Source of the DNA: Dysidea avara
Taxonomy: Eukaryota; Porifera; Demospongiae; Dictyoceratida; Dysideidae
Direction of reading: 5' to 3'
NCBI RefSeq assembly: GCF_963678975.1
Contig: NC_089285.1
Location: forward strand, 10,526,694-10,590,693
DNA length: 64,000 nucleotides
The notes under the pieces are model-generated. The model ran no database searches and was not told where the DNA came from. It was given only the letters and a program-made list of their open reading frames with translations. Positions 2,264 through 46,558 of this stretch are shown here, piece after piece; the stretch's first letter is position 1; each line of letters starts with the position of its first letter. Both the position numbers and the translations under genes were made by a program.

Positions 2264-2293
2264 ATTGCTTCTTTTGCATACCAGCTGTTTCTC
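2264..2293 (-). pseudogene. 30-bp middle fragment of the broken paralogue
   Basis: The sequence matches 40365-40394 in the intact paralogue. It is stranded between the 435-bp insertion and the outer transposon. Its last 8 bp (2286-2293, TGTTTCTC) are the left copy of the target-site duplication of the outer element. Confidence 0.8.
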
Positions 2294-2610
2294 CGAGGGG
2301 TCCGTCACTGGCAGGAATATCGTCGAACATCAGAACTGAAATATGGAATATGGAATATATTCAAATCATATTTCCGTATATGTACGTGTATTTTCGTATA
2401 TTGTTCTTATCACATGATATAAGATTACGTCATTTAATTATCTGCGGCGGGCGTCAATTATATCAAACTTGTTCTCCTCGCTTATTCTCAAGGTTATTCC
2501 ACTGCTTGATGGTTCGTGGAAAGTAGCTGTAGCTCTGTTGGTAAGCAGTTGTTATGGCTGGAGGGGTTATACTTACATTCGTCTTGACCAGCTCAGTTAC
2601 TGATTGAGTC

Positions 2611-2618
2611 TATATAAA
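2611..2618 (+). promoter_or_regulatory. TATA-box-like sequence upstream of the transposase gene
   Basis: TATATAAA lies 370 bp before the first ATG of the transposon gene at 2988. It belongs to the outer element rather than the inner one, so any role in driving the inner gene would be fortuitous. Only the match to the consensus supports it. Confidence 0.25.
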
Positions 2619-2745
2619 ATGGCCCGCTCCATTGCAACATGCCAGCTAACCATCATAGCTCGTACTGCGTAATCCTCAGCGTAATTGTCCCAACTGTGTG
2701 AAAAGCACTTCATTTGATATGAACCCGAGGGGTCAGCAACAAGCT

Positions 2746-2796
2746 GAAAATCTCGTAGGAGCTGCCGAAAATCTGAACGAAAATCTTAAAATCTTC
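2746..2796. repeat. Left subterminal AAAATCT cluster of the inner transposon
   Basis: Four copies of AAAATCT lie within about 50 bp, directly after the left terminal repeat. The same heptamer is clustered next to the right end (10023-10160). Confidence 0.6.
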
Positions 2797-2987
2797 ACCT
2801 ATTTTTTCCGTATTTTATCCGTAAATGTTTGTTTACTATGTATCACGTGATGTTTAATCGTGGTGACATGTGCGGGACCACGTGTTTCACCTCATGCTGA
2901 TCTCGTTATCGAGTTCATTCCGGAGTTCATTCCGGAGTTCATTAGCTATCAACGGGGCTATCAATTTCCCTTAAGATCGGGGTTAAG

Positions 2988-3172
2988 ATGGATATAAATT
3001 CAACATCGTCAAGCTTCCCTTCTGAACACGAGGAGGAGCGTGATATCAGCAGTAAGCCAATTAGCACCTCGATTAGCACCCCAGGACCCACTACTACTCA
3101 GCGTGGAGCTGCAGTCAGTGAAGCCGGGCCGAATGAAGCAACAATCCAATCAGGACTAGTAACTGAACAAAG
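2988..3172 (+). CDS. Transposon gene, exon 1 (N-terminal Ser/Thr-rich region)
   Basis: The first ATG of the frame opens a 61-codon Ser/Thr/Pro-rich segment with no recognised domain. It ends in AAAG|GTGAGT, a textbook 5' splice site, at 3172/3173. The 3' splice site TTGGTTAG at 3464 is followed by codons that continue the same protein: the two leftover bases AG join with A3465, giving a phase-2 intron of 292 bp. A second phase-2 donor (AAA|GTAAGA at 3410) would lengthen this exon to 3409 and shrink the intron to 55 bp. That longer form reads through one TGA at 3174-3176 but is otherwise open for about 77 codons. Confidence 0.65.
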
Positions 3173-3464
3173 GTGAGTACGCATGCCATCACTGAGTCGA
3201 GCATGCCGCTGTCTTGACTGCGAGGTTGCAACTCAATTATCCGCGGAATTATCTGTTTGTAGCTCATCAATTATTCAGTTGAATCCGAGGTTGAATCAAG
3301 TCCTGACTCAAAAATGTACTGCAAGTTCGAATAGAGATCACTTGGAACCCCATGAAGCCCCATGTGAAGCTGAATTAAATTCGGAAGCTAATGAATCTTT
3401 ATCTCAAAAGTAAGAGCACAATAGCTAATTTCAAGCTGTAATAATTACATTTTTTGTTGGTTAG
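3173..3464 (+). other. Intron 1 of the transposon gene (or retained exon part plus a 55-bp intron)
   Basis: It is bounded by GTGAGT and TTAG. The first 237 bp remain open in the exon-1 frame after a single TGA and end at a second good donor of the same phase. This looks like former coding sequence spliced out after the nonsense change, or like alternative splicing. Confidence 0.5.
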
Positions 3465-4497
3465 ACATCAACAAACTAGTAAGCTTTCAACGAACTCCAT
3501 TTCCTCCAAGATTTCTCATCAAAGACCAAGTGACTCGCAAAGTGAAGTACCTGATTATGATACACTTGATGACTCGTCCTCCGACTCGTCAGATGAGGTG
3601 CAGAGAAATAAAATGAATTTAAGAGTGATGAGACTAATGAAACAGAAGCTTCCACCATACATCGTAAACTGTGTTGTGTCAGCAGGGTTTGATGAAATAG
3701 AAGTTCTCTCTTCAATGGATACTAGTGAAAACCCAGGTAATTCTATTGAGAAGATTGAGAAATACATAGAGCGAAAATTTGCTTCCTCTCCAAACCATAA
3801 TCCATATTCTTCTAGTCCATTTGAATTTTCACCTGGGCACAGAATCAGGCTTTGCCATTTTATCAGAGAAGTGAAAACATTATGCCGAAATAAGAGTGAT
3901 GTCAACGTTTACTCAAAAAGAAAAATGGATTCCCAGTTTGCTAAGGTAAACAAGAAAAGGAAAATAACAGAAAAGCAGACTACTTCTGATGACTCAACTG
4001 TTACAGTTCCTACACTTGTTGATGTTTCTAAGCAGGTGAGGCATAATTTATGCACATGGACAAAAAGACAAGAAAAGAGCTACTTGTGGGAAATGCAAGA
4101 AGGTGAACATTATTCACTGCATATTGTACCAAAAGGTTGCCCTGGAGATTTTGAAGTATCTATTAGGTGTCTCAATTGTGGAAATTCCATTTTGCTGCAA
4201 AAAACCTATCAGTCATTTTCCAATTCCAATTTTTACCGGCATGTCGATTCGTGCATGGATAAAAATAAAGACGAAAGCGAGAAAAAGGATAAGAAAAAGT
4301 TCAGTCAAACTTCCTTAGGGGGCTATTTTACAGAGTCTTCAGCTAGCGATGGCAATGGTTCTTCTAGCAGTAGAGTAAGCACACATTCAAGTAATGCTGA
4401 TAATAGCTTAATTGATTTGACAGCTGTAAGTGCCTTGAAAAATAATTATTCTCAAGCTTTAGCCAGCAGTGATCAATCAGAGAACCAGGTTTTTTAG
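3465..4497 (+). CDS. Transposon gene, exon 2, first part: helical domain and C2HC/BED-like zinc finger
   Basis: About 343 codons are open to a TAG at 4495-4497. An acidic Ser-rich stretch is followed by a compact helical region around 'LPPYIVNCVVSAGFDEIEVL' and 'NPGNSIEKIEKYIE', the pattern of small helical domains seen in multicopy transposon proteins. A Lys/Arg-rich segment comes next. Last is a likely zinc finger, CLNCGN followed by H-x3-C about 20 residues later (HVDSC), which suits terminal-repeat binding. The frame changes from this ORF to the transposase ORF within 4473-4494. The joint is a T6 run followed at once by a strong hairpin (see the feature at 4487-4529). Confidence 0.65.
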
Positions 4498-5744
4498 GTA
4501 GCCCCTCTTTCCATACGGAAAGAGGGGCTGAAAAAAAACCACGCCCCCCAGAATGGTCATGGTCTTCTAGAAAGAAAAGGCATCTTGAAGCAGCTGCTTC
4601 TGATCCATCACAATCTCTTATAACAGGTTACTGGAAAATCATGAGTACCATAGAGCAATTAGAGCACAAAAATGACACACTGACTGCATTGCTACAACAG
4701 GTACGATCTTCGGAGACAACTCTTTATGTGAATTCAGCTAACACAATATCATTTTCCAATATCTTACAAGAATTGATAAAGAATGCAGAGCGCAATCATT
4801 ATAAATATCCCACACATCGAAGGCATTCAGAAATTATGAGAAAGATTGCAACTGCACTGTTTCTTTTTGCTGGACCTTTGTCATATGAATTTATTCATCA
4901 AAACATTCCACAGGCATTACCATGTGTTCGAACTATTCAAACTGCCATTTATTCTGAGTACCAAGTTATTGATGAAGGCTTATTTAGATTTGATCAACTG
5001 AAGGAGCACATTGACCGCTACAAAGCACCCCTATTTGTTTCAATAGGTGAAGATGCAACAAGAGTGGTAGGACGAGTGGAATATGACTGCGCAACTGACA
5101 GATGTGTAGGATTTGTGCTACCACTGAATAGTGATGGTTTGCCAGTAATAGATGCTTTTGTGGCAGTGTCATTTCCTGCTATGGAAAACATGTTTCGCAA
5201 AGTTTCAGTGGCAAAATATGCTTATGTCTATATGGCACAACCATTGTGGCAAAATGTGCCACCATTTTGCCTAGTGTGCTTTGGTACTGATAATAAGTTT
5301 TGTGCAGAAGATCTGCTGCCAAGGTGGACATACATCACAAATGAATGTTCCAAGCGTGGCATTACGGTATTAAGCTTTGGGGCTGATGGTGATAGCAGGT
5401 TAATGAAATGTATGAAGATATCCTCCTCGTTTGTACCATCATCTCATTCACTGCCAACCAATAACTTATCTTCAACTATACCCACCGCCTGGGAGAATTG
5501 GTTTCATATTCAGCCAATAAATATAGCATTCGTTCAAGACACTGTCCACCTTGCTGTCAAGTTGAAGAGCCGTTTACTGAAGCCAAATATTGCTTTACGG
5601 ATGGGAGATTATACAGCAACGGGAAGTCACCTACAAGCCTTGACAAGAAAATTCCAGAAAGATCAGCATGGATTGCGATTGAGAGACATTAATCATAAAG
5701 ATAAGCAGAACTTTCAGGCTGTTATAAACATTACAACAGCTTGA
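4473..5744 (+). pseudogene. DDE-type transposase, first part (in-frame TGA at its end)
   Basis: The frame is open from 4473; the first ATG is at 4641, but coding-like sequence (basic, Pro/Trp-rich) precedes it. Counted from that ATG, candidate catalytic acids are E137/D138 in SIGEDATRVVG, D249/D251 in SFGADGDSRL, and the QDTVH motif at 298-302. These look like the spaced acidic motifs of an RNase H-fold transposase. The frame is interrupted by a TGA at 5742-5744 and continues in the same phase at 5745, so the transposase core is split by one nonsense codon. Family membership rests on motif appearance only. The copy is probably inactive unless the stop is suppressed. Confidence 0.7.
4487..4529 (+). 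promoter_or_regulatory. Candidate -1 frameshift site: T6 run and 13-bp hairpin
   Basis: Codons GTT TTT TAG (4489-4497) end the upstream ORF. A tRNA on TTT (4492-4494) can slip back one base onto another TTT, after which reading enters the transposase frame (open from 4473). Four bases after the T run, AGCCCCTCTTTCC (4500-4512) and its exact complement GGAAAGAGGGGCT (4517-4529) form a 13-bp stem with an ATAC loop. A simple one-T deletion in the run explains the same frame change. The hairpin position is what makes programmed slippage worth considering. Confidence 0.4.
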
Positions 5745-7589
5745 CATTTGTTGTCTGAGGTACCACAGAGTGATGCCACAAAATGCTACATTGAGCTTAT
5801 GAGATGTGCCACAAATAGCTTTTTAGATCAGCAGCTGGGCCCACTTGAACGAATCGAAGATCTGTGGTATGTTGTATTTTTTATGAGATATTGGCGAAAG
5901 TGGTTGATATTAAATAAATCATTTACTCTTCGAGATAATTTTATTACATCAAATGCATATATGTGCATCGAGCTGAATGCTCATGCATTGATTGTGTTCC
6001 TGATTACCATTCGAGATCATGTCAATAACAGCAAATGTTTTTTACCTTGGCTTCTTGGATCACAATCCTGTGAAGCTACTTTCAGAGCTGCAAGAAGTAT
6101 GAGTAGCATATTTTCAACGATGATCAATTTCGGTATGCTCGGATTGCTACGAAGGTTACATCGTTTGCATATTCAGTTAGCCCTTCAGGCTAATTCAGAT
6201 AAAGAAATAATCTTCCCAAGAGTGATTAAGCAACAACGTAAAGCTCAAAGGCTCTCTCATAGTCTTGATTTCACCAATGATGAAATAGATAAAGCAATCG
6301 GCAAGGCCAAGGACAAAGCAAAATTAATGGTTGAAAAGCTGGGCATGGCTGAGCTGTTTGAGAAGCATACTTTGTGGGGGTCCGATAAAACTATTGTTGG
6401 AATAGATGGTGGCAAGGAAAATTTTTTGTGCAGTGTTGATGATGATGGTGATGATAGCGATACTGAAAATGACGATGTTAATGACAACAGAGCAGAAGAG
6501 GAGACTGTTGATGACTCTACTAGTGAGGAGTCTATACACATATCAGATGATATAGGAGCATGTATTGAAAGTGGGTGTATTGATAGCACCCTTCAGGAAA
6601 GGCTTGAGCAGAAGAAGAAAAGATTAGCATTTCAGCGCCTGCCTTCTTCAACAATACCAATGTATCAATGTGTTGAAGTACAGAATGACAATCAAAAGAA
6701 ATCTGTGCATGCAGGTCAGAGCAAGTTTAATCCTTTTGTTGAAGTACTGACTCATAATCACAAATCTGTTTTAATTCGAAAAACTACTGCCCTTTGGTTG
6801 CTCCAAGAAGGGGAGCGACTATCCCCTGATAGAATATTCAGAGTTAGAAGTAAGCAACCTTATTCAGAGAGTTTACCTGGAACTAAAATGGTTGAGCCTT
6901 TTGTTATAGGTGATAATGATGTTACCAAAACTCTGGATGTAGTTGTCATAGACCATGAAGGTGAAGATGAAGATAGCAATGTCTCAAATGCGTGGCTCAA
7001 AATCAAAGGAATGTGTCTGTACAATTCTGACAGAAGAATACTTGCAGATGGCAAATGGCTCTATGGAACACAATTAAGTGCAATGCAGTTTTTTCTGAAA
7101 GAGCAGTTTCCGCTAGTCAATGGATTAGAGGACACTGCTTTAGTCTTGAAAAAAAGCAATAAAATTTTACCAGGAAGTGTTCAGGTCTTACATGTGAATG
7201 GCAACCATTGGGTTACGGTTTCCACACTTGACTCCAGTGTTGATGTCACCATTTATGATTCCCTACATTTCACCATCTCTGAGGACACTAAAGCTCAGCT
7301 AGCCAAACTGCTGAAATCACAAAAGAAAACCATCACTGTCAAATTTGCTAGTACAAACAAGCAGGCTGGTACTGATGACTGCGGATTATTTGCAGCTGCT
7401 TACTCCACATCTCTGGTTTATGGGCAGGATCCAAGCTGCTATGTTTATAACCAAGGAGTGATGAGAAAACACCTAATCAAATGCTTTGACGAACGAATGG
7501 TTCAACCCTTTCCAGTTATTAGAGCAAGAAGAGCTGGAAGTTCTATAGTCTCATCAACATCAGTGTTTATTGTTATTGCAGATGTGTAG
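5745..7589 (+). pseudogene. Transposase C-terminal part fused to a Ulp1/SENP-like cysteine protease
   Basis: Continues in frame after the TGA at 5742. Near codon 109 the motif GSQSCEATFRAAR gives a plausible third catalytic acid (E) of the DDE triad. A very acidic linker follows (Asp/Glu-rich, about 6430-6560). The last 200 residues resemble a C48 (Ulp1/SENP) deSUMOylase-type protease: H487 in NGNHWVTV, D504 in IYDSLH, Q539 and C545 in QAGTDDCGLFAAAY, in the correct order and spacing for the His-Asp-Gln-Cys site. Ulp1 modules are known in several eukaryotic transposon groups. The frame ends in a TAG at 7587 just as a PHD finger begins in another frame. Confidence 0.75.
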
Positions 7590-7711
7590 ATGATGGAGCT
7601 CCTATGGTACGCTGTGACAATGAAGAATGTAAAGAGTGGTTTCATTTTAACTGTATCAATACTCAAGTTCAGAAAGGGAAGAAGTGGTACTGTAAGAGTT
7701 GTCAAAATTGA
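7571..7711 (+). pseudogene. PHD zinc finger, out of frame with the protease
   Basis: In the third frame the sequence reads a Cys4-His-Cys3 PHD finger: CRC, then MVRCDNEEC, WFHFNC and WYCKSC, with the conserved Trp before the last Cys pair and a stop at 7709. PHD fingers bind histone tails or unmodified lysines. Here the module is probably the true C-terminus of the transposon protein. It is offset by one base from the protease frame, so either a single-base loss between about 7525 and 7570 or a small intron ending at 'ttattgcag' (7582) links them. No convincing donor was found, so an indel is preferred. Confidence 0.7.
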
Positions 7712-8281
7712 TCGATGGGGTATTTATATAGCTATGTACACTAATTTCTATCAACAAGACTGTATTTTTGAACTATATGCAGAGGCTATGTAGCCTCAAG
7801 TTTTATTAATGATCACATCACTTATTCATTTGTTATTTTATTTAACCTCATGGTCACAGTAATCGGCATAGCCGTTCTTATCGGAGTAGTAATGTTATTA
7901 AAACAGCTATTATGCATTAATGTTAATCCATGCACAAGTTAAAAATTGTGCTGAATAGCTAGCTACAATCACCTCTAGCTCTATACATAGCTCTACTTAG
8001 AGTTAATATTTATACAGTGGCATGCAAATAGCTATAATAATTATACAACTCAATAGCACAGAATAAGCACGAAGATTTAATTATTACTTAAAGAGAGAAT
8101 AAACGTCTTAATGATTAAGACAAAATATACATTACAAGCATACAGGGGCCTAGACACAGGGGTACCATGTGTTGATGGATCAGTACAGGAGCCCTGGCAA
8201 GACTTACATTAACTAAAAGTAAATTAAATTACAATACACCAAAAAAAAAATCTATATCTACTTATACGTAATACTTAAAAT
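7712..8281. other. 3' noncoding part of the inner transposon
   Basis: AT-rich, without an open frame or internal repeat that I can recognise. Confidence 0.4.
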
Positions 8282-8285
8282 TTAC

Positions 8286-8460
8286 CTAAGGTGGTCTAAA
8301 AGATCCCAGCCCGGGGAGGCTCTAGAATTAAAAATTCTGTAAGAACAGGACACAGCAATGCGAGCTGCCTGCTCAAACAAGGATCTTACGGTTTTCTTTG
8401 GCACTTCACAAGCAGTAATAGTCGGCACCAAACCATCGAAGCAGTCTCGGTCTCGCCGGG
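8286..8460 (-). other. Exon-like coding stretch inside the transposon tail
   Basis: On the minus strand one frame reads a coding-like peptide containing DGLVPTITACEVPKKTV, FEQAARIAVSC and SRASPGWDLLDHL, with higher GC and CpG content than its surroundings. It ends at TTAG|GTAAAT, a good donor at 8286/8285, and a stop follows at once if unspliced. A second minus-strand frame starts at an ATG in good context (AAGCCATGG near 8486) and overlaps it. I do not recognise the protein. It could be a captured host exon or a piece of another element nested in the transposon. The 5' limit is uncertain. Confidence 0.4.
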
Positions 8461-8629
8461 TCCGCGGACACAGTCGCGGTCCTCCATGGCTTTTCTCGCG
8501 GCTTTGGATGTATATAGCTACAGTAGATAGTTAATGATCATTCCAAGCATCATAGTTCACTAGCTGGCTTTGTAGTTAGCGTCGGTGAGCTACAACCAGC
8601 TGTACAGCTCAGCTTCAGTTTTCATCATA

Positions 8630-9873
8630 AGGCCACTCCAAGTCATACCTTAGTTTCTGGTCACTCCCTAGCCAACAAAAGGATGCGGGCGGGCGGATGA
8701 TCAGGACTTCAGGACTATTATAGACTCTTACATATACACCAGTAATACTGTAATGTTATTAATTTTGCTCAATTTACCCATTTCATATTGAGTTTACAAC
8801 CAAGCTTAACCAACATTCTTATAGCATAAGTATAGTTAATTATGCTTCTGCAAAGTGCACCAGGAAGATTGTTGATGGCTAGCTACACTGCTGAGCACAA
8901 CAATGTGTAGCTAACACTAAGGAAAGGTCTGCTCATGTAGCTACTTTTGCTTTACAAATGAAATGTTTCATTAGCTATGTCAGGAAATTATTATTTATTA
9001 GCTAACTAATAATAATCCAAAACTATATTAACACACCAGAAACTCTTTCAAATGTGAAGTCTTAGTCAACTATATATGCATGTGTTTCCAGCCTTCTATA
9101 CAGTAAACCTTCAGTAAAGTAGCTGTCAAAGTTTTGAGTTGAGTTGTTGAGTGCTCCAGGCTAGTGTTTTTCAGTGATCATGTGGGAAAGCTAAGTTAAT
9201 GTTTTAACTAAGGGATGCCATGCACTTGTTAATTTAGGACCATACTTGCAATTATTTAATCATGGAAAAGTTGAAGTTTGAGCTCACCAAATGTTACCAG
9301 ATTTCTAGTCAGTATATCAGTGATCAGTGATAAGGAAGTCCAAGTTTAGATCCACTAGAAGAGTTACTAGATTAATCATTAGAGGACCACATCTGAATTG
9401 TTAGGAAAGTTTAAGCTATAGTATATCTGATCATTAGGCTACACTGTTAAAAATGAAGTGCTATGATAGCACCTAAAAATGCTATGGTAGCACCAAAAGT
9501 GCTAAATTTTGACTGCTCCGGTCAAAAAATAGCACCTAGAGGTGCTACCATAGCACTTCATTTTTAACAGTGTAGTGATCAATGCTACATACATATTGTA
9601 CTGAAGTTACTTACTGGCAACAGAAGCATTACTAATAGCTATATAGCTAATCAAGGAGAAGTCAAAAACGTTATAGTAGTATCTAGTATTAAAGTTAAGG
9701 GTAGTGTGACTGCTCTATTAGAGTATCTCGATCTTTTGCAGTGTTTAAAAATCACTGTCCTTGGTCACGTACACTTAAACGCCTGTAATATTAATAATAG
9801 TCCTCATAAACTGGGGTTCCAGTTTTCCATGCGGGCGGGTGACCAGAAACTAAGGTTTGACTTGGTGTGGCCT
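8630..9873. mobile_element. Terminal-inverted-repeat element (GGCCACTCCAAGTCA... family), 1.24 kb
   Basis: The left end (GGCCACTCCAAGTCATACC, then 'ttagtttctggtcac') is repeated inverted at 9820-9873, with 'gcgggcggg' close to both ends. It carries no gene, a copy of the CTCTAATAGAGCAGTCA-type motif (near 9710-9730) and a nested MITE (9442-9572). A related copy is at 20754-21139 and a more distant one at 47302-47585. No clear target duplication was found. Confidence 0.6.
9442..9572. mobile_element. 131-bp palindromic MITE, TA target
   Basis: The ends CACTGTTAAAAATGAAGTGC and their complement are near-perfect over about 35 bp, flanked by TA on each side (9440-9441, 9573-9574). The inside repeats 'gctatggtagcacc' in both orientations, so nearly the whole element can fold. 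It is nested in 8630-9873. Confidence 0.8.
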
Positions 9874-10022
9874 AACCGTTGATCACTAGGCTGAGTATAC
9901 TGAATAGCTTCTCTCGCCTCCTGGACCTCGCCCTGTGACATTAAACAAATATTTAACAATATTGAACGAGATCTTACATACAAGGAGACTTACTGAACAT
10001 CGCCTCACGCTGAAACAACGAA

Positions 10023-10160
10023 AAAATCTCGAGAGAAAATCTTAGAAAATCTCCACAAAATCTCGGAATCTATCAAAATCTCAAAATCTCCTTAAAATCT
10101 CAAAATCTCCTTAGAATCTCAAAATCTTTAAAAATCTCAAGATTTTAAAATCTCGTGGGC
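10023..10160. repeat. Right subterminal AAAATCT array of the inner transposon
   Basis: Eleven exact AAAATCT copies, plus variants, occur in 138 bp just inside the right end. The left end has four. Subterminal repeats of this kind are usually transposase-binding sites. Confidence 0.65.
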
Positions 10161-10403
10161 GATTTTACTTTGTTGCTGACCCCCCGTATGAACCAGTAGC
10201 CTAAATAAATAATACATGGATGGAATGTAGAGGAATATTCAGGAATATCGAGGAATCCAATTGAAATATGGAATATGCAAGAATATCACGAATATTTGAA
10301 ATATAATCTGAAATAAGCAGGAATATGGAATATCATGGAATACAATGCCCATATTCCAAATATCGTCGATGATTTCGCTAGTGACGGACCCCTCGTGTTT
10401 CTC

Positions 10404-10647
10404 TAACCGTTGTGAGTTTGATTCCACCATTGCCTGCCATGACAAATGCTCCTTCTCCGCTTAGATCACCTCCCACTTTAATTGATGAAATGATGCGAGC
10501 CGAGAAATCCGGACAAATCTTATCAAGACGTATCATTGCTTTAGCTTTACCTCCACCGATTTTCGTTGGTAAATTCGGTACTTTTGTTATCCAAACGCCA
10601 TATTCAGTGTTATTCACGACTATACACCTCGACAAGAGTTTGCCCAT
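10404..10647 (-). pseudogene. 5' part of the broken paralogue, with the start codon
   Basis: Starts at ATG 10647 and reads MGKLLSRCIV, then a segment closely matching residues 1-85 of the 40014-40637 protein (shared runs NTEYG.WIT, IGGGKAKAMI, DFSARIISSI, VGGDLSG). The start has the glycine-2/Ser-6 pattern of an N-myristoylation signal followed by Cys, as in the intact paralogue. The frame runs into the outer transposon at 10395; the remainder of the gene is at 2264-2293 and 1480-1828. The first 8 bp on its left (10396-10403) are the second copy of the target duplication. Confidence 0.8.
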
Positions 10648-10650
10648 GAT

Positions 10651-11110
10651 TAGAGGCGAGATTAGAGGTCAATATGCTCGGGTTGTACGTAGTGCACGAA
10701 AATATAGCGAAAATAAACGGAAACAGGTCAGTGGTCAAGACAAAATTTCGATAAAAGTCAACGGTCAAAATCTACAATCGATCTTGACCGGCTTTGACCG
10801 CGGTCGCAGATCGTAGTACAGTGCTAATTGGAGTGACACCCCCTTGGTATGGCGGACATAATAAACGGGGATTGATTTATTCACCCAACCTGATGTCAGC
10901 ACGTGATTAATTTTATTGTACAGGCGCTTATATATCTATTTCTTCATGGTCAACCGTGTTTCTCCGCGTAACAAAACATTACGAGTGGCTATGTTTTAAC
11001 CATTGCCAGGGCGGGCATATAGTCTAGCAGCAAGAGATGATATGAGATCAGCAAAGTTACCAGATAGCAGCTTCAATATGGAAGGTACATATTGTGCACC
11101 TATCAACGTA
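10651..11110. other. Upstream flank of the broken paralogue; one possible small exon
   Basis: No long frame. A plus-strand segment at about 11031-11083 has a CTAGCAG acceptor and a GAAG|GTACAT donor and reads RDDMRSAKLPDSSFNM between them. Its phase does not fit directly to the exon at 12276, so it is only a possibility. Confidence 0.25.
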
Positions 11111-23870: not shown

Positions 23871-24327
23871 TAGGGACCCGCCGATTATGCTCATAATTTT
23901 ACCTATTATGCTATGCTGCACTGCTCAAAAATTCACCTATTATGCTTAAATTAATGCTCAATATTTACTTATTGTGCTCGATTATGCTCAATGTTCATGC
24001 CTTAGTTCATATGCTTTGCTACTAGTTTAACACTATATAGAAAGAAAAAAATGAGTGGCTGGAACACAAATAATAAATTCTTGCTGCATGCCTGCATGTA
24101 AGAGACAAGATCGATATATTCTAATAGAACAATCAGTTTGATGATTGTTCTATTAGAGTTACTGACTGCTCTATTAGAGTATATTGATCTTATTTTGCAA
24201 TTGTCATTTTCCCAGCAAGAGTTTACACTATCGTACAAATATTTAACCTATTATGCTGGCATTATGCTCAATGCTTTTAGGTACCTATCATGCTCAAAAT
24301 TATGCTAGCATAATCGGCGGGTCCCTA
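23871..24327. mobile_element. hAT-like MITE, exact 8-bp target duplication
   Basis: The ends TAGGGACCCGCCGATTATGC and their complement are flanked by ATAATAAA on both sides (23863-23870, 24328-24335). The middle (about 24110-24190) carries an inverted pair of the CTCTAATAGAGCAGTCA-type motif. No gene. Confidence 0.85.
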
Positions 24328-24499: not shown

Positions 24500-24628
24500 A
24501 CGGACACACGGACACACACACACTGTTTTTACACTATGATGACTAAAATACTTGAATTTGGCATTTTCTGGTTATACCCTGGTGGCTAAATGAAACCAGA
24601 CCAGTGAGTGATATGAGATCAGCCATAA

Positions 24629-26203
24629 TTTGAGACAATTATGATAAATTACTGAAATTCCTCTATAATTCATCCTCAGAGGATCTACGAAATTTTCTTG
24701 GAGGAAGCAACAGCAGCCTGTATGTACCTCATAGATTGTCAAGTTTCACTTTGTCACGCTTCACGTTCCATTGGTGGTCTGGTAAAATGGCAATCATTGC
24801 TGTAAACTGGCATTACAATGGATGTTCATGACTGTACACAAACAAAGAATGTTGGGTGTAATCACATACATATAGTTAAAGAATCTGTGAATAATTCTAC
24901 ACTGTGCGTAGTAAGTGACCAATCTACAATGAATCATTTTTATTATAGACTAAAGTCTCCATCACACTATACGAAAGTATGCTGCTTACTTTTTGGTCTC
25001 TTGTATGACTTAACTGAAATCATACCCATAGTGCTAAACATTATAGAGTTATGAAGGCGTCAGCAGAAAATTTGGCTAAATAGAAAATTCCATAGAAACG
25101 AGTTTGGTCTGGGATGTGCAGACATGTGGTCGCACCTACCCAGTGAATCAGCATTTGAGACAATTATGATAAATTACTGAAATTTCTCTATAATTCATCC
25201 TCAGAGGATCTACGAAATTTTCTTGGAGGAAGCAACAGTAGCCTGTATGTACCTCATAGATTGTCAAGTTTCACTTTGTCATGCTTCACGTTCCAGTGGT
25301 GGTCTGGTAAAATGGCAATCATTGCTGTAAACTGGCATTACAATGGATGTTCATGACTGTACACAAACAAAGAATGTTGGGTGTAATCACATACATATAG
25401 TTAAAGAATCTGTGAATAATTCTACACTGTGTGTAGTAAGTGACCAATCTACAATGAATTATTTTTATTATAGACTAAAGTCTCCATCACACTATACGAA
25501 AGTATGCAGCTTACTTTTTGGTCTCTTGTATGACTTAACTGAAATCATACCCATAGTGCTAAACATTATAGAGTTATGAAGGCGTCAGCAGAAAATTTGG
25601 CTAAATAGAAAATTCCATAGAAACGAGCTTGGTCTGGGATGTGCAGACATGTGGTCGCACCTACCCAGTGAATCAACATTTGAGACAATTATGATAAATT
25701 ACTGAAATTTCTCTATAATTCATCCTCAGAGGATCTACAAAATTTTCTTGGAGGAAGCAACAGTAGCCTGTATGTACCTCATAGATTGTCAAGTTTCACT
25801 TTGTCATGCTTCACGTTCCAGTGGTGGTCTGGTAAAATGGCAATCATTGCTGTAAACTGGCATTACAATGGATGTTCATGACTGTACACAAACAAAGAAT
25901 GTTGGGTGTAATCACATACATATAGTTAAAGAATCTGTGAATAATTCTACACTGTGTGTAGTAAGTGACCAATCTACAATGAATTATTTTTATTATAGAC
26001 TAAAGTCTCCATCACACTATACGAAAGTATGCAGCTTACTTTTTGGTCTCTTGTATGACTTAACTGAAATCATACCCATAGTGCTAAACATTATAGAGTT
26101 ATGAAGGCGTCAGCAGAAAATTTGGCTAAATAGAAAATTCCATAGAAACGAGTTTGGTCTGGGATGTGCAGACATGTGGTCGCACCTACCCAGTGAATCA
26201 GCA
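24629..26203. repeat. Tandem array: exactly 3 units of 525 bp
   Basis: The starts at 24629, 25154 and 25679 are spaced exactly 525 bp, and the third unit ends complete at 26203. Copies differ at only a few positions. Each carries the same 78-codon plus-strand frame (24818, 25343, 25868), which may be open only because the copies are recent. The end of each unit reads an exon-like plus-strand frame (QKIWLNRKFHRNEFGLG and on, from a GGCGTCAG acceptor). After the third unit that frame continues into single-copy sequence to a donor AAAGAG|GTGAGC at 26305/26306. So the array may be a partial gene duplication that includes exon starts. Confidence 0.85.
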
Positions 26204-33457: not shown

Positions 33458-34316
33458 TTAATGTTTTTGTGTATAGCTAAGGCATGATGCACGTGGCCAA
33501 CGATGTTGCCAGATTTGATAATTGCTACCGTGTACGGATCCAAGATGTTCGTCCTCTATTATACAGCTTAGCTCTCCCATGCATCAACAATCTTTATACA
33601 TGATGTATATAGCTGTCCATTTCGAATGACTGGATCCATTTGTGTGTGTTCAATGAATATATAACTATTAGTAGGGGTGGTTTAGCCTATGTACATAGTT
33701 TTCCCTAAAATTAAAAATCCAATTAGCATAATATGGCTACAAGGTAAAATTTAATTACCATCAAAGCTTCATGCTAAATGATACCAGCAACCACAACATT
33801 TAGTGTTATTACCCAACACTTTATTCAATTAGTTACCATGCACACCAGCCAATGTGCTTCACCATTGTGAACCACAAATGAATGAAGTTACATGACACAA
33901 TTAAAAAACAATACAATGGTGAAGCACATTGGCTGGTGTGCATGGTAACTAATTGAATAGTGTTGGGTAATAACACTAAATGTTGTGGTTGCTGATACCA
34001 TTTAGCATGAAGCTTTGATGGTAATTAAATTTTACCTTGTAGCCATATTATGCTAATTGGATTTTTAATTTTAGGGAAAGCTATGTACATAGGCTAAACC
34101 ACCCGTTATATATTTATTGAACACACACAAATGGATTCAGTCATTCGAAATGGTCAGCTACATCATGTATAAAGATTGTGGATGCATGGGAGAGAGCTAA
34201 GCTGTATAATAGAGGACGAACATCTTGGATCCGTACACGGTAGCAATTATCAAATCTGGCAACATCGTTGGCCACGTGTGTCATGCCTCAGCTGTTCACA
34301 CAAAAAAACATTAATT
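33458..34316. mobile_element. Foldback element: two ~410-bp arms around a 44-bp spacer
   Basis: The left arm (33458-33868) and right arm (33913-34316) are inverted copies over their whole length with few differences, including small indels. Landmarks are 'cacgtggccaacgatgttgcc' outside and 'accagccaatgtgcttcacc' inside. No gene. A partial copy of the inner region is at 34745-34865. Confidence 0.9.
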
Positions 34317-37521: not shown

Positions 37522-38438
37522 CAGTGTTTATTCTAGGGCTGTTAGTGGGGGAACTTTCCCCCCCTAAAATCTCAGACTCACCCCCCTAAAATTGTGAGTA
37601 ACTAATATTTGGTTAAGCTTGTTTTTTTTTTTTAAATGACACACTAAACTTATCAAAAATGATCTCAGATTCAATCTCAGAGTGGTTAATATGTAAAATT
37701 TTCCCAGGTTAACAAATGCAAATACAACCTTAAAATGTTGCCCCTCAGATTCAGTATCAGATCTACATTAATAAATTCATGCATATCAATATCTGAGAGC
37801 CCAAGTTTACCCAATATAGAAAAAATAACTCTCCTTACATTCAATCTCAGAAGGTGTGATTTGTAAAAATTTTCTACTTTCAAAATGGCATGCACAGCCA
37901 GCGCAAATACCCCCAGATTTAATCTCAGAAAGCCTGATCATAGTTTTGAAAAACTTCCTGTATTGCAATAACCCACATGAAAATGCCCTAGTATTTAATT
38001 TCAAACACTTTGTTTATTTCTTGGAAGACATCCACCCATGCAGATCTTGTAATTCATTATATAGTGTTTTGTGGTATCATATGTACAATGACAGTTAATA
38101 CTCGCCAGATGGTATGATTGGTAGAGATTAATGTATGAGTGTATAGTATGACATAACAATGTGATACACTAGTACACTGCATATTAAATGTTGAATATCT
38201 TTACAATTTGTGTGTGATCAGTCTTCATACACACAATCACAAAAATCAATCAAAATCAACATTCATGCATGACACAGCTAGCCTTACATGACTAACCAGT
38301 ATTTAGCAAACTACCTCAACTGTTTTACATAGTTGTGAACTTGGAAAACTATGTAACAAACTTTCACCTAGTCACTCCCCAAATTCCTGACCCCCCCCCC
38401 CCCCCCCCCCCAAAGGAGAAATCCTAGAATAAACACTG
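37522..38438. mobile_element. hAT-like element, 917 bp, nested; contains a 21-nt poly(C)
   Basis: The ends CAGTGTTTATTCTAGG and their complement are flanked by exact 8-bp duplications GATAGGCC (37514-37521, 38439-38446). 'cagattcaatctcag'-like phrases recur several times inside (37670-37930). C21 occupies 38391-38411. No transposase frame. Confidence 0.85.
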
Positions 38439-39176: not shown

Positions 39177-40013
39177 ATGTGTTCTTTGCCCTCAAAAATG
39201 GTGTCTTATTGTGCATATGTGATTTTATAGAGTGCCACATCCTATTTTATGAGAGATTGTGTGCTTTAGACCCCTTGCTGCCAGAGTTTCTACAATGGAA
39301 CATGACAATTAGGACACCTACTGTGACGACACTTGATAATAGTCCCAAAAAGCAGTGTTGGGAGTAACGTGTTACGTAATATTATTGCTTTTGTGGCAAC
39401 TAAGTAATATAATGAAATACACTATAAAAACAGGTAATATAACTCAAGTTACTTTGCTTACTAATGTAACGCGTTACCTAAGTAATATAGAGTCTAATAT
39501 TACATAATATTATTATTACAAGTAACGAAGTTACTAATCTCGTTAGTAATCCACTGTGTAACGCCTAGCCAAAACGAAGTAATGAAGCCTACTGAATGAA
39601 GCTTATTCACCAGCTTCTTACTTATAACCAAGATTTGTACATTGCCCAACAACACAATCATGTCACATGATAGGGTGGTAGTTGCACACGTGACAGCTTA
39701 AGGCTGTGGACACAAAGTAATATAATATGTAATATTATTATAGTTACTTTATTTTTTGGGTAATATGTAACTGTAACTAAATAGTTCTGTTGCAAGTAAT
39801 ATGTAATATGTAACTATATAAAAAGTAACTATCCCAACACTGCCAAAGAGTATCCCCTTAACATGTAACTTGGAAATCAGAACACCTTGAAAAACAGGAC
39901 AAATTTGGTTGGTCCCAAGGTGTCCTTAATACACAGGTTTCACTGTATAACATAATCTCTTCCTCTGCATGCCATTGCTCATGTGAAATTTAGCTTGTAA
40001 CATACATAAATTG
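39177..40013. repeat. Right partner of the segmental duplication (see 1130-1479)
   Basis: It matches 1140-1479 on both sides of the insertion at 39353-39842, in the same order and orientation, and continues into the gene at 40014. Confidence 0.65.
39353..39842. mobile_element. hAT MITE, 490 bp
   Basis: The ends CAGTGTTGGGAGTAACG and 'taactatcccaacactg' are inverted repeats of the CAGTGTTGGG type known for hAT MITEs. The flanks CCAAAAAG and CCAAAGAG form an 8-bp duplication with one change. The uninterrupted target is visible at 1302-1309. The inside is rich in 'taatattac'. Confidence 0.85.
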
Positions 40014-40637
40014 CTATTGACGTCGTACATACATAGCAACAGTATCACTGTCATCAGATTTTTTCTCATGATCTAGTTTATTGAAGTAGTCTGTTATTGG
40101 GTAAACCCAATCACCTCCAGGCTTTGGATTTGTGTAACAATTTCTCTGATTGATCTGTAATAATTTATCATTTATGACATACACACACATGTGCATGGAT
40201 GATGTGTTACACCATGTAAACTTTTTTCCTGCTTCAATAAATTCAGTATTAACACAGAATTCTTTCACAGTTGTCTGATATTCAGTAGCTTCCTCCTTTG
40301 AGGTTTTTAAAGTTTCAGCTAAGCTATCAGTCTGTAAATTCTTGAGTAGTTCAATCCAAGTCAATTGCTTCTTTTGCATACCGGCTGTTTCTCTAACTGC
40401 TGTGAGTTTGATTCCATCATTGCCTGCCATAACAAATGCTCCTCCTCCGCTTAGATCACCTCCCACCATAATTGATGAAATGATGCGAGCTGAGAAATCC
40501 AGACAATTTTTATCAAGATGTATCATTGCTTTAGCTTTACCTCCACCAATTGCCGTTGGTACATTCGGTACAATTGTTATCCAAATGCCATATTCAGTGT
40601 TATCCTCGACTGTACACGTCGATAAGAGTGCGCCCAT
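40014..40637 (-). CDS. 207-aa protein of unknown family, possible N-myristoylation signal
   Basis: Starts at ATG 40637; the frame is open further upstream, but this ATG aligns with the start of the paralogue at 10647. It begins MGALLSTC, fitting an N-myristoylation signal (Gly2, Ser6) followed by a Cys that could be palmitoylated. The N-terminal half has 'AIGGGKAKAMI', 'DFSARIISSI' and 'GGDLSGGGAFVMAG'; the C-terminal half has 'VYVINDKLLQINQRNCY' and 'GGDWVYPITDYFNKLDHEK'. No transmembrane segment. The predicted role is a membrane-anchored cytosolic protein, by inference only. It is the intact member of the pair whose other copy is broken at 1480-10647. Confidence 0.7.
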   Translation of the reverse strand: MGALLSTCTVEDNTEYGIWITIVPNVPTAIGGGKAKAMIHLDKNCLDFSARIISSIMVGGDLSGGGAFVMAGNDGIKLTAVRETAGMQKKQLTWIELLKNLQTDSLAETLKTSKEEATEYQTTVKEFCVNTEFIEAGKKFTWCNTSSMHMCVYVINDKLLQINQRNCYTNPKPGGDWVYPITDYFNKLDHEKKSDDSDTVAMYVRRQ

Positions 40638-40739
40638 GATTAGAGGTAAATATGCTCGAGGCGTGGTTCTATGCGTAAAGTATTGACCATGCGGCAGGCA
40701 TAAAAGTGAGCGCCCAGCGCTGTCACAGTCCCAGACTCG

Positions 40740-45752: not shown

Positions 45753-46558
45753 TGTGGTTGTGGTATTCTAAAACATGTGCATGTATTGGTATTCAAATTG
45801 AATCTGAAACTATTTTAAATTGAGGGGAATTCCAAGAAAAATACCCTACAATACCCACACGCATTCACAATTGTGTGGTTTACTTACTTACTTGCAATTG
45901 TTGATATGTCTACATTCATAATCTTAAAACAGCATATAATGCATGAAAAACAGGAGTTCAACAAATGACACACACAATTAACTACAGTTTTATAAAGACA
46001 TTTCTATATAGTTTAATACAGGTAGACAATAAAACTAATTTCACTGTCGAATGTGCATGCACCACAATTATCATTTGTGACCGAATTTTGGAAAATCACC
46101 CTTATGGATGCATTTGACACATTAAATATTTAGTTCTGAAACACAGCATTATAAGTTAAAGTCCTCCTACCCATGTAAGGATAGAATAAATTATAGATAC
46201 ATTGAATTACAAGAAAAAATTTTGAAATATTTGAAAAGTGTTTTCTGCTAGTAACAGCACTATGCTAGTTTCAGAAATTCTAATTATTTCAGGTGCAGCC
46301 ATAAGGGTGATTTTCCAAAATTTGGTCACATTTACTGAATAGTATTTCAGCTATGTTCTGTTACAAAGCAGTACAAATGAAAAACAGTAACTATAAGAGC
46401 ATCTCATACATACAGTTGCATGCAAGTAGGCGTAAAACACAAAATAATGTGAATGTGTGTGGGTATTGTAGGGTATTTTTCTTGGAATTCCCCTCAATTC
46501 AAAATAGTTTCAGATTCAATTTGAAAACCACCACACATGTTTTAGATAACCACAACCA
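45753..46558. mobile_element. Foldback/MITE nest: outer ~115-bp arms and an inner inverted-repeat pair
   Basis: Outer arms at 45753-45870 and 46445-46558 are inverted copies ('gaggggaattccaagaaaaa' and onward). Inside, 46077-46107 and 46299-46329 form a second inverted pair (GTGACCGAATTTTGGAAAATC). The inner pair resembles the ends of 53261-53498. Confidence 0.75.

Follow-up and report, generated by a model that had tools for sequence, protein, structure and literature searches.

How does a transposon without a gene come to enclose a related transposon that has one, and which enzyme moved the gene-less copies? This question is raised by a 64,000-nucleotide stretch from the sponge Dysidea avara (RefSeq assembly GCF_963678975.1, contig NC_089285.1, positions 10,526,694 to 10,590,693 of the forward strand; C14:10526694-10590693 in our contig numbering), referred to here as the window, which we analyzed against its own genome of 550,814,596 bases in 108 contigs. 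Very probably, the outer element is a deleted member of a P-like family represented by the gene-bearing element L137, lying in a duplicated host stretch, and the inner element, from a sister family, inserted into it later. The original prediction, made from the letters of the window, had described two nested, related transposons with exact 8-bp target duplications, the inner one carrying a gene and the outer one gene-less. The sequence, together with empty sites for both elements, confirmed this description. The features of the nest are as follows.

2286..2293, no strand: left copy of the outer target duplication, TGTTTCTC
2294..10395, no strand: outer element, gene-less; its own sequence of 633 bp (2294-2725 and 10195-10395) is interrupted by the inner element
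2294..2309, + strand: outer left tip, CGAGGGGTCCGTCACT
2718..2725, no strand: left copy of the inner target duplication, TATGAACC
2726..10186, + strand: inner element, gene-bearing, P-like
2726..2742, + strand: inner left tip, CGAGGGGTCAGCAACAA
10170..10186, - strand: inner right tip, CGGGGGGTCAGCAACAA, with one mismatch
10187..10194, no strand: right copy of the inner target duplication, TATGAACC
10380..10395, - strand: outer right tip, 16/16 identical to the left tip
10396..10403, no strand: right copy of the outer target duplication, TGTTTCTC
40386..40393, no strand: empty outer site with a single TGTTTCTC, in a paralog of the outer element's flanks

Self-comparison of the window revealed that the flanks of the outer element (1294-1828 and 10396-10656) are repeated at 39836-40365 and 40386-40646 with 90% identity, and this paralog contains TGTTTCTC once and no element. 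For the inner element, an empty site is found in the gene-less outer-family copy L113 (641 bp), where TATGAACC occurs once without an insertion; the same holds for 14 out of another 20 places of the outer family. These empty sites show the order and the boundaries of both insertions. That the nesting was created by the assembly is exceedingly improbable: we found no point in support of such an artefact, and both junctions have exact duplications and independent empty sites. The inner boundaries of the original prediction held up, with one correction: the terminal repeat is imperfect, matching at 16 of 17 positions, and the right tip reads CGGGGGGTC. Exact 12-bp inverted pairs flanked by exact 8-bp duplications occur five times in the window, the outer element being one of them, and were absent from 40 first-order Markov sequences of window size. 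Because of its tip mismatch, the inner element falls outside this strict count. The left flank of the outer element also contains an extra ~435 bp at 1829-2263, with inverted ends AGACAATATGCAT and seemingly a 2-bp AT duplication; the paralog has no insert around 40364-40365.

The parent of the outer element was found through its left end, which occurs at 31 places in the genome with at most two mismatches (control, 0). We examined 24 of these places (the window, L113, L137, L138, and 20 fetched stretches), and two of them head transposase-bearing elements, L137 on contig C13 and L138 on contig C5. L137 is 7.1 kb long and has the ends of the outer element, with TGACCGGC on both sides and a right tip that is one base short. 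L138 is 95.6% identical to L137, and its right end is cut off. The gene-less copy L148 corresponds to the left 200 bp of L137 (97% identity) joined to its right 454 bp (94% identity). Fourteen of the 20 fetched places are complete, with lengths of 638-651 bp and exact 8-bp duplications in every case. When 15 complete gene-less copies were compared with their majority sequence, counting substitutions only, 12 were within 0.3%, 13 were within 0.6%, and two differed by 1.7%. As demonstrated at the level of sequence, the gene-less outer element is an internal-deletion derivative of the gene-bearing L137 family. We rejected the inner element as the parent, since the outer element's own ends head L137 and L138 and since L148 consists of joined L137 ends. 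The proposal that the outer element is a satellite of the inner family was likewise not upheld: L137 and L138 bear the outer left end and a transposase of their own, which in L137 is ~46% identical to that of the inner element. A genome-wide search for the terminal repeats, suggested as a test of one shared family, did return the expected crowd of gene-less copies, but the outer element proved to have its own gene-bearing parent in L137/L138.

The left end of the inner family occurs 11 times exactly, 15 times at ≤2 mismatches, and 21 times at ≤3 mismatches (control, 0), and nine copies of its transposase are found at 95-100% identity. Seven copies have both ends, and six of these (in the window, L072, L073, L074, L076, and L077) have exact duplications; L076 and L077 keep the same boundaries with altered left tips. 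Two further copies are outside this count, with only the right end (L078) or neither end (L079) in the fetched stretch. Seven inner copies differ from their majority by 0.3-1.1% over 4.1 kb, and one gene copy of the family, L072, has a long open frame of 1,078 amino acids. Copies bounded at other positions, which would have spoken against the proposed boundaries, were looked for in both families. None turned up among the 14 complete outer copies, all with exact duplications, or the six inner copies that have them.

Taken in order, the outer element arose from an L137-family parent by internal deletion, keeping the same ends, and would have been transposed by a cut-and-paste route, with cleavage staggered by 8 bp, into one copy of the duplicated host stretch. 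The gene-bearing inner element of the sister family then inserted at an 8-bp site within it. Today the frame of the inner copy contains a stop and is shifted ahead of the PHD finger, and the copy carries a Harbinger-like insertion that itself encloses a hairpin element. Several observations weigh against this reading. Seven of the 31 outer left ends lie outside the examined set, and six of the 20 fetched places are interrupted, longer, or truncated, with no right end in the stretch. The outer copy in the window differs from the majority by 2.4% and is 7 bp longer at the deletion junction, and is therefore taken as an older variant. One inner copy with both ends, L075, has no exact duplication. 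In addition, both known parents are broken, L137 by an in-frame stop and a frame change and L138 by frame changes, so that near-identical gene-less copies stand beside broken L137-type genes and the mover of the latest burst is not seen. The genome search returned only these two L137-type gene copies at ≥95%.

The elements of the nest belong to a larger clan with a common tip. The 15-base tip CGAGGGGTCMGYMAC occurs 585 times genome-wide (294 forward and 291 reverse), compared with 16 (8 + 8) for a reversed-pattern control. From 100 listed tips (C1 and part of C2), we picked 20 facing pairs by hand and thus not at random. Exact 8-bp duplications flank 17 of the 20 pairs, and the duplications of L106 and L109 have one mismatch each; L120 has none, which counts against the pattern. 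No transposase match was detected in these 20 pairs, L113 included. A comparison of 30 distinct ends showed that they diverge by family past base 15, the first 15 bases being mostly fixed by the pattern used for selection; ends found by other routes include the variants CGAGGGGTCCTTCAC, CGAGGGGTCGGTCAC, and CGAGGGGTCACCAAC. Two transposases, 56% and 64% identical to that of L137, are each accompanied by one outer-like end (82% over 44 bp and 72% over 107 bp), and their opposite ends were not found in the fetched stretches. L110, which has no gene, has the same two ends as the L091 element; L102 and L104, also gene-less, have one end in common with an element at C1:48125935. This arrangement resembles that of the Anopheles P elements, in which gene-bearing parents and their gene-less offspring have been described.

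Which enzyme, then, moved the gene-less outer copies? Most likely it was an L137-type transposase that is now broken or absent from the assembly. Because both L137-type genes are broken while 13 of the 15 gene-less copies are within 0.6% of the majority, a sister transposase may have helped to move them recently. The original prediction had suggested the inner family for this role, since the inner element carries the gene and the outer one does not, and had noted a common tip, which is confirmed: the two left ends, outer and inner, agree in their first 9 bp, both fit the 15-base tip, and both elements make 8-bp duplications. The inner family also has near-identical gene copies, including the long frame of L072, whereas both genes of the outer family itself are broken. 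However, the ends of the two families differ past the common tip, the outer element has a gene-bearing parent of its own, transposases closer to that of L137 come with ends closer to those of the outer element, and the inner and L137 enzymes are only ~46% identical. We therefore consider it improbable that the inner transposase mobilizes the outer family. Somewhat less unlikely is a burst driven by a third sister family, since several other families have long open frames and one of them, at C12:4758341 (1,224 amino acids open), has an outer-like left end. Nothing supports this idea directly, and individuals other than the one assembled, or sequence missing from the assembly, could harbor an intact L137-type element. 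More speculatively, and with comparable doubt, the clan may be a branch of the P superfamily that lacks the THAP domain and has acquired a SUMO-type protease along with a PHD finger, with the common tip of ~15 bp allowing a living sister transposase to move orphaned gene-less elements; such a rescue is suggested because the outer copies are near-identical beside two broken parents. The L137-type enzyme is nonetheless our preferred mover.

The original prediction also raised the possibility that the inner family prefers the outer element as a target. A few arrangements invite a wider version of this idea, in which clan elements favor one another or one another's ends. Gene-less L113 interrupts the tip of a different clan family (CGAGGGGTCACCAACTCACG) at bases 7-14 (L113:287-308), and a tip of that host family stands back to back with the L091 element, 27 bp from its right end (L165:79-107). 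Fly P constructs have been reported to insert into themselves, according to an excerpt of PMC4744444. Against this, an exact tip beside a tip in the same direction within 30 bp occurs once genome-wide and once in the reversed control, and no nested order was seen by eye among the 100 listed tips. The 14 complete outer copies among the 20 fetched places are all empty at the inner element's site. Of 40 flanks from 20 elements, two matched clan elements over short stretches of 30-90 bp, and scanning the flanks for tips yielded none; the scan missed the tip at L113 because the flank ends inside that tip. A preference among clan elements is thus highly improbable, and we find no support for the inner element choosing the outer one, in a test that is incomplete in that the back-to-back pattern was not counted.

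The gene of the inner element is divided among several frames, listed here.

3454..4497, + strand: first open frame, encoding the N-terminal portion of the protein and conserved in L083 and L137; a CxxC...H...C cluster and no THAP match
4641..5744, + strand: second open frame, with the P-type helix-turn-helix and the first predicted catalytic acids; in-frame TGA at its end
5748..7589, + strand: third open frame, with the last predicted catalytic glutamate followed by an Ulp1-like (C48) protease region
7547..7711, + strand: PHD-finger-like C-terminus, in a different frame from the third open frame (frameshifted in the window copy)

The Peptidase C48 match in the third frame of the window copy is below the Pfam cutoff. 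In L137, both C-terminal domains are above it (PHD, 8e-10; Peptidase_C48, 9e-5), and in L136 the PHD finger shares its frame with the last part of the protease region. A genome search with the second open frame returned at least 113 places, of which nine are at 95-100% identity and the remainder at 35-67%. This frame had no relative in phage records, bacterial or archaeal contigs, or viral contigs, where the contig searches reach close relatives only. The inner tip was found at 62 places in prokaryote contigs, which by our own estimate is about the chance expectation for a pattern of that length. Searching the PDB by sequence returned nothing for the second open frame and one chance-like match each for the third frame and for the profile. 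A small hairpin near 4493 was considered as an insertion, but the surrounding translation resembles that of other families, and we make no claim for it.

To what superfamily does this protein belong? In an alignment of 18 transposase members, some of them near-identical to one another, the P-type helix-turn-helix (PF12017) was matched by 15 at E ≤ 1, with a best value of 4e-8. The match reaches 27 bits in L072 (cutoff, 23) and 24.4 bits in L097, and in the window copy it lies just under the cutoff (21.2 bits; E = 4e-4). The alignment has an invariant D138, D249, and D300-x2-H303, with a CE motif ~178 residues further by our own count. As a pattern match, this predicted catalytic layout of D, D, D(2)H, E is like that of the Galileo transposase, for which the same series is given in an excerpt of PMC4168063. 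The P-type RNase H domain (PF21787) was matched by 3 of the 18 members (best E = 0.0075), and L137 matched it below the cutoff (E = 0.089). The helix-turn-helix match, the arrangement of catalytic residues, the inverted ends, and the 8-bp duplications together suggest cut-and-paste chemistry of the DDE (aspartate-aspartate-glutamate) type, like that of the P element.

The link to the P superfamily is looser for some members. PF12017 had no match at E ≤ 1 in the open frames of L137, and the long L083 frame reached only E = 0.19. Structure models were too poor for a comparison of folds, with predicted local distance difference test scores of 35 from a single sequence and 41 from 13 sequences, and a GTP-binding insertion domain was not among the Pfam matches for the window frames, the 18 aligned members, L137, or L083. 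No THAP domain was matched at E ≤ 1 in the window frames, L137, or L083, where an N-terminal exon may have been missed. All known P proteins are said, in the text excerpted from PMC1562414, to have a THAP domain. Since none was found in the scanned frames, we call the clan P-like, by sequence resemblance to the superfamily, rather than placing it among the canonical P elements. Two other assignments were rejected. The 8-bp duplication alone would fit hAT, and no hAT family was among the Pfam matches; Ginger elements have a similar protease and PHD finger, but the duplications here are 8 bp rather than 4 bp and there was no integrase match.

Comparison with known systems, drawn from excerpts of the cited papers, places the clan among several relatives and look-alikes. 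Like the clan, Drosophila P has inverted ends, 8-bp duplications, and internally deleted gene-less copies (PMC7776569), and the clan has the P-type helix-turn-helix by Pfam. The tip of Drosophila P, CGAGGGGTC, differs from that of the clan, and a full-length P element is 2.9 kb long compared with 7.1 kb for L137 (PMC7776569). In contrast to Drosophila P (PMC7776569), the clan has no detected THAP domain and bears an Ulp1-like protease and a PHD finger at the C-terminus. In Anopheles gambiae, as here, several P subfamilies coexist in one genome, and gene-less families known as P-MITEs (miniature inverted-repeat transposable elements) have the ends of their parents and 8-bp duplications (PMC1562414). 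The ends of L148 likewise derive from L137, a gene-bearing parent found in this genome too. Anopheles P proteins have THAP domains, unlike the clan, and whereas L148 consists almost entirely of parental ends, Anopheles P-MITEs have an unrelated middle (PMC1562414). Galileo shares the D-D-D(2)H-E layout, and most of its copies lack a complete gene; unlike the clan, it has long terminal repeats, mostly 7-bp duplications, and a THAP domain (PMC4168063). Several Ginger1 families have an Ulp1 domain at the C-terminus of the transposase, and one has Ulp1 together with PHD, but the transposase is of the integrase type, the duplications are 4 bp long, and the ends are TGT (PMC2836005).

Our literature searches returned no paper on a P element with Ulp1, and looser ones brought up Ginger and, in one case, nothing that we judged relevant. 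As far as these searches tell, the clan is new as a P-like variant, and the family could already be in Repbase. Nesting as such is ordinary. This locus offers an ordered stack, from the duplicated host stretch through the outer, inner, and Harbinger-like elements to the hairpin, and natural empty sites exist for all three of these elements. Because P-like parents with a gene and their gene-less offspring occur in one genome, it becomes possible to test whether a transposase reads the common tip or the family-specific part of the end. In carrying a protease and a PHD finger, the P-like transposase is reminiscent of Ginger and Mutator transposons, which have the same additions.

Two later insertions lie within the inner element.

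8631..9872, no strand: Harbinger-like gene-less element, with TAA duplicated at 8628-8630 and 9873-9875 and ends GGCCACWCCAAG
9442..9572, no strand: hairpin element within the Harbinger-like element, with a TA duplication on both sides

The Harbinger-like piece is absent from the matching site in L072, L073, and L075, with TAA present once in L072, and therefore arrived after the inner element. Its assignment as Harbinger-like is presumptive, and the hairpin is presumably a transposon as well.

Elsewhere in the window, four further inverted-repeat elements with exact 8-bp duplications are present at 23871-24327, 33787-33992, 37522-38438, and 45834-46483. The first of these has ends TAGGGACCCGCCGATTATGC, a sequence that is also present after base 18 of the left end of L115. 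The window further contains what seem to be three tandem copies of ~525 bp that are 98-99% identical (24628-26203) and a palindrome-like inverted repeat of ~857 bp at 89% identity (33458-34314).

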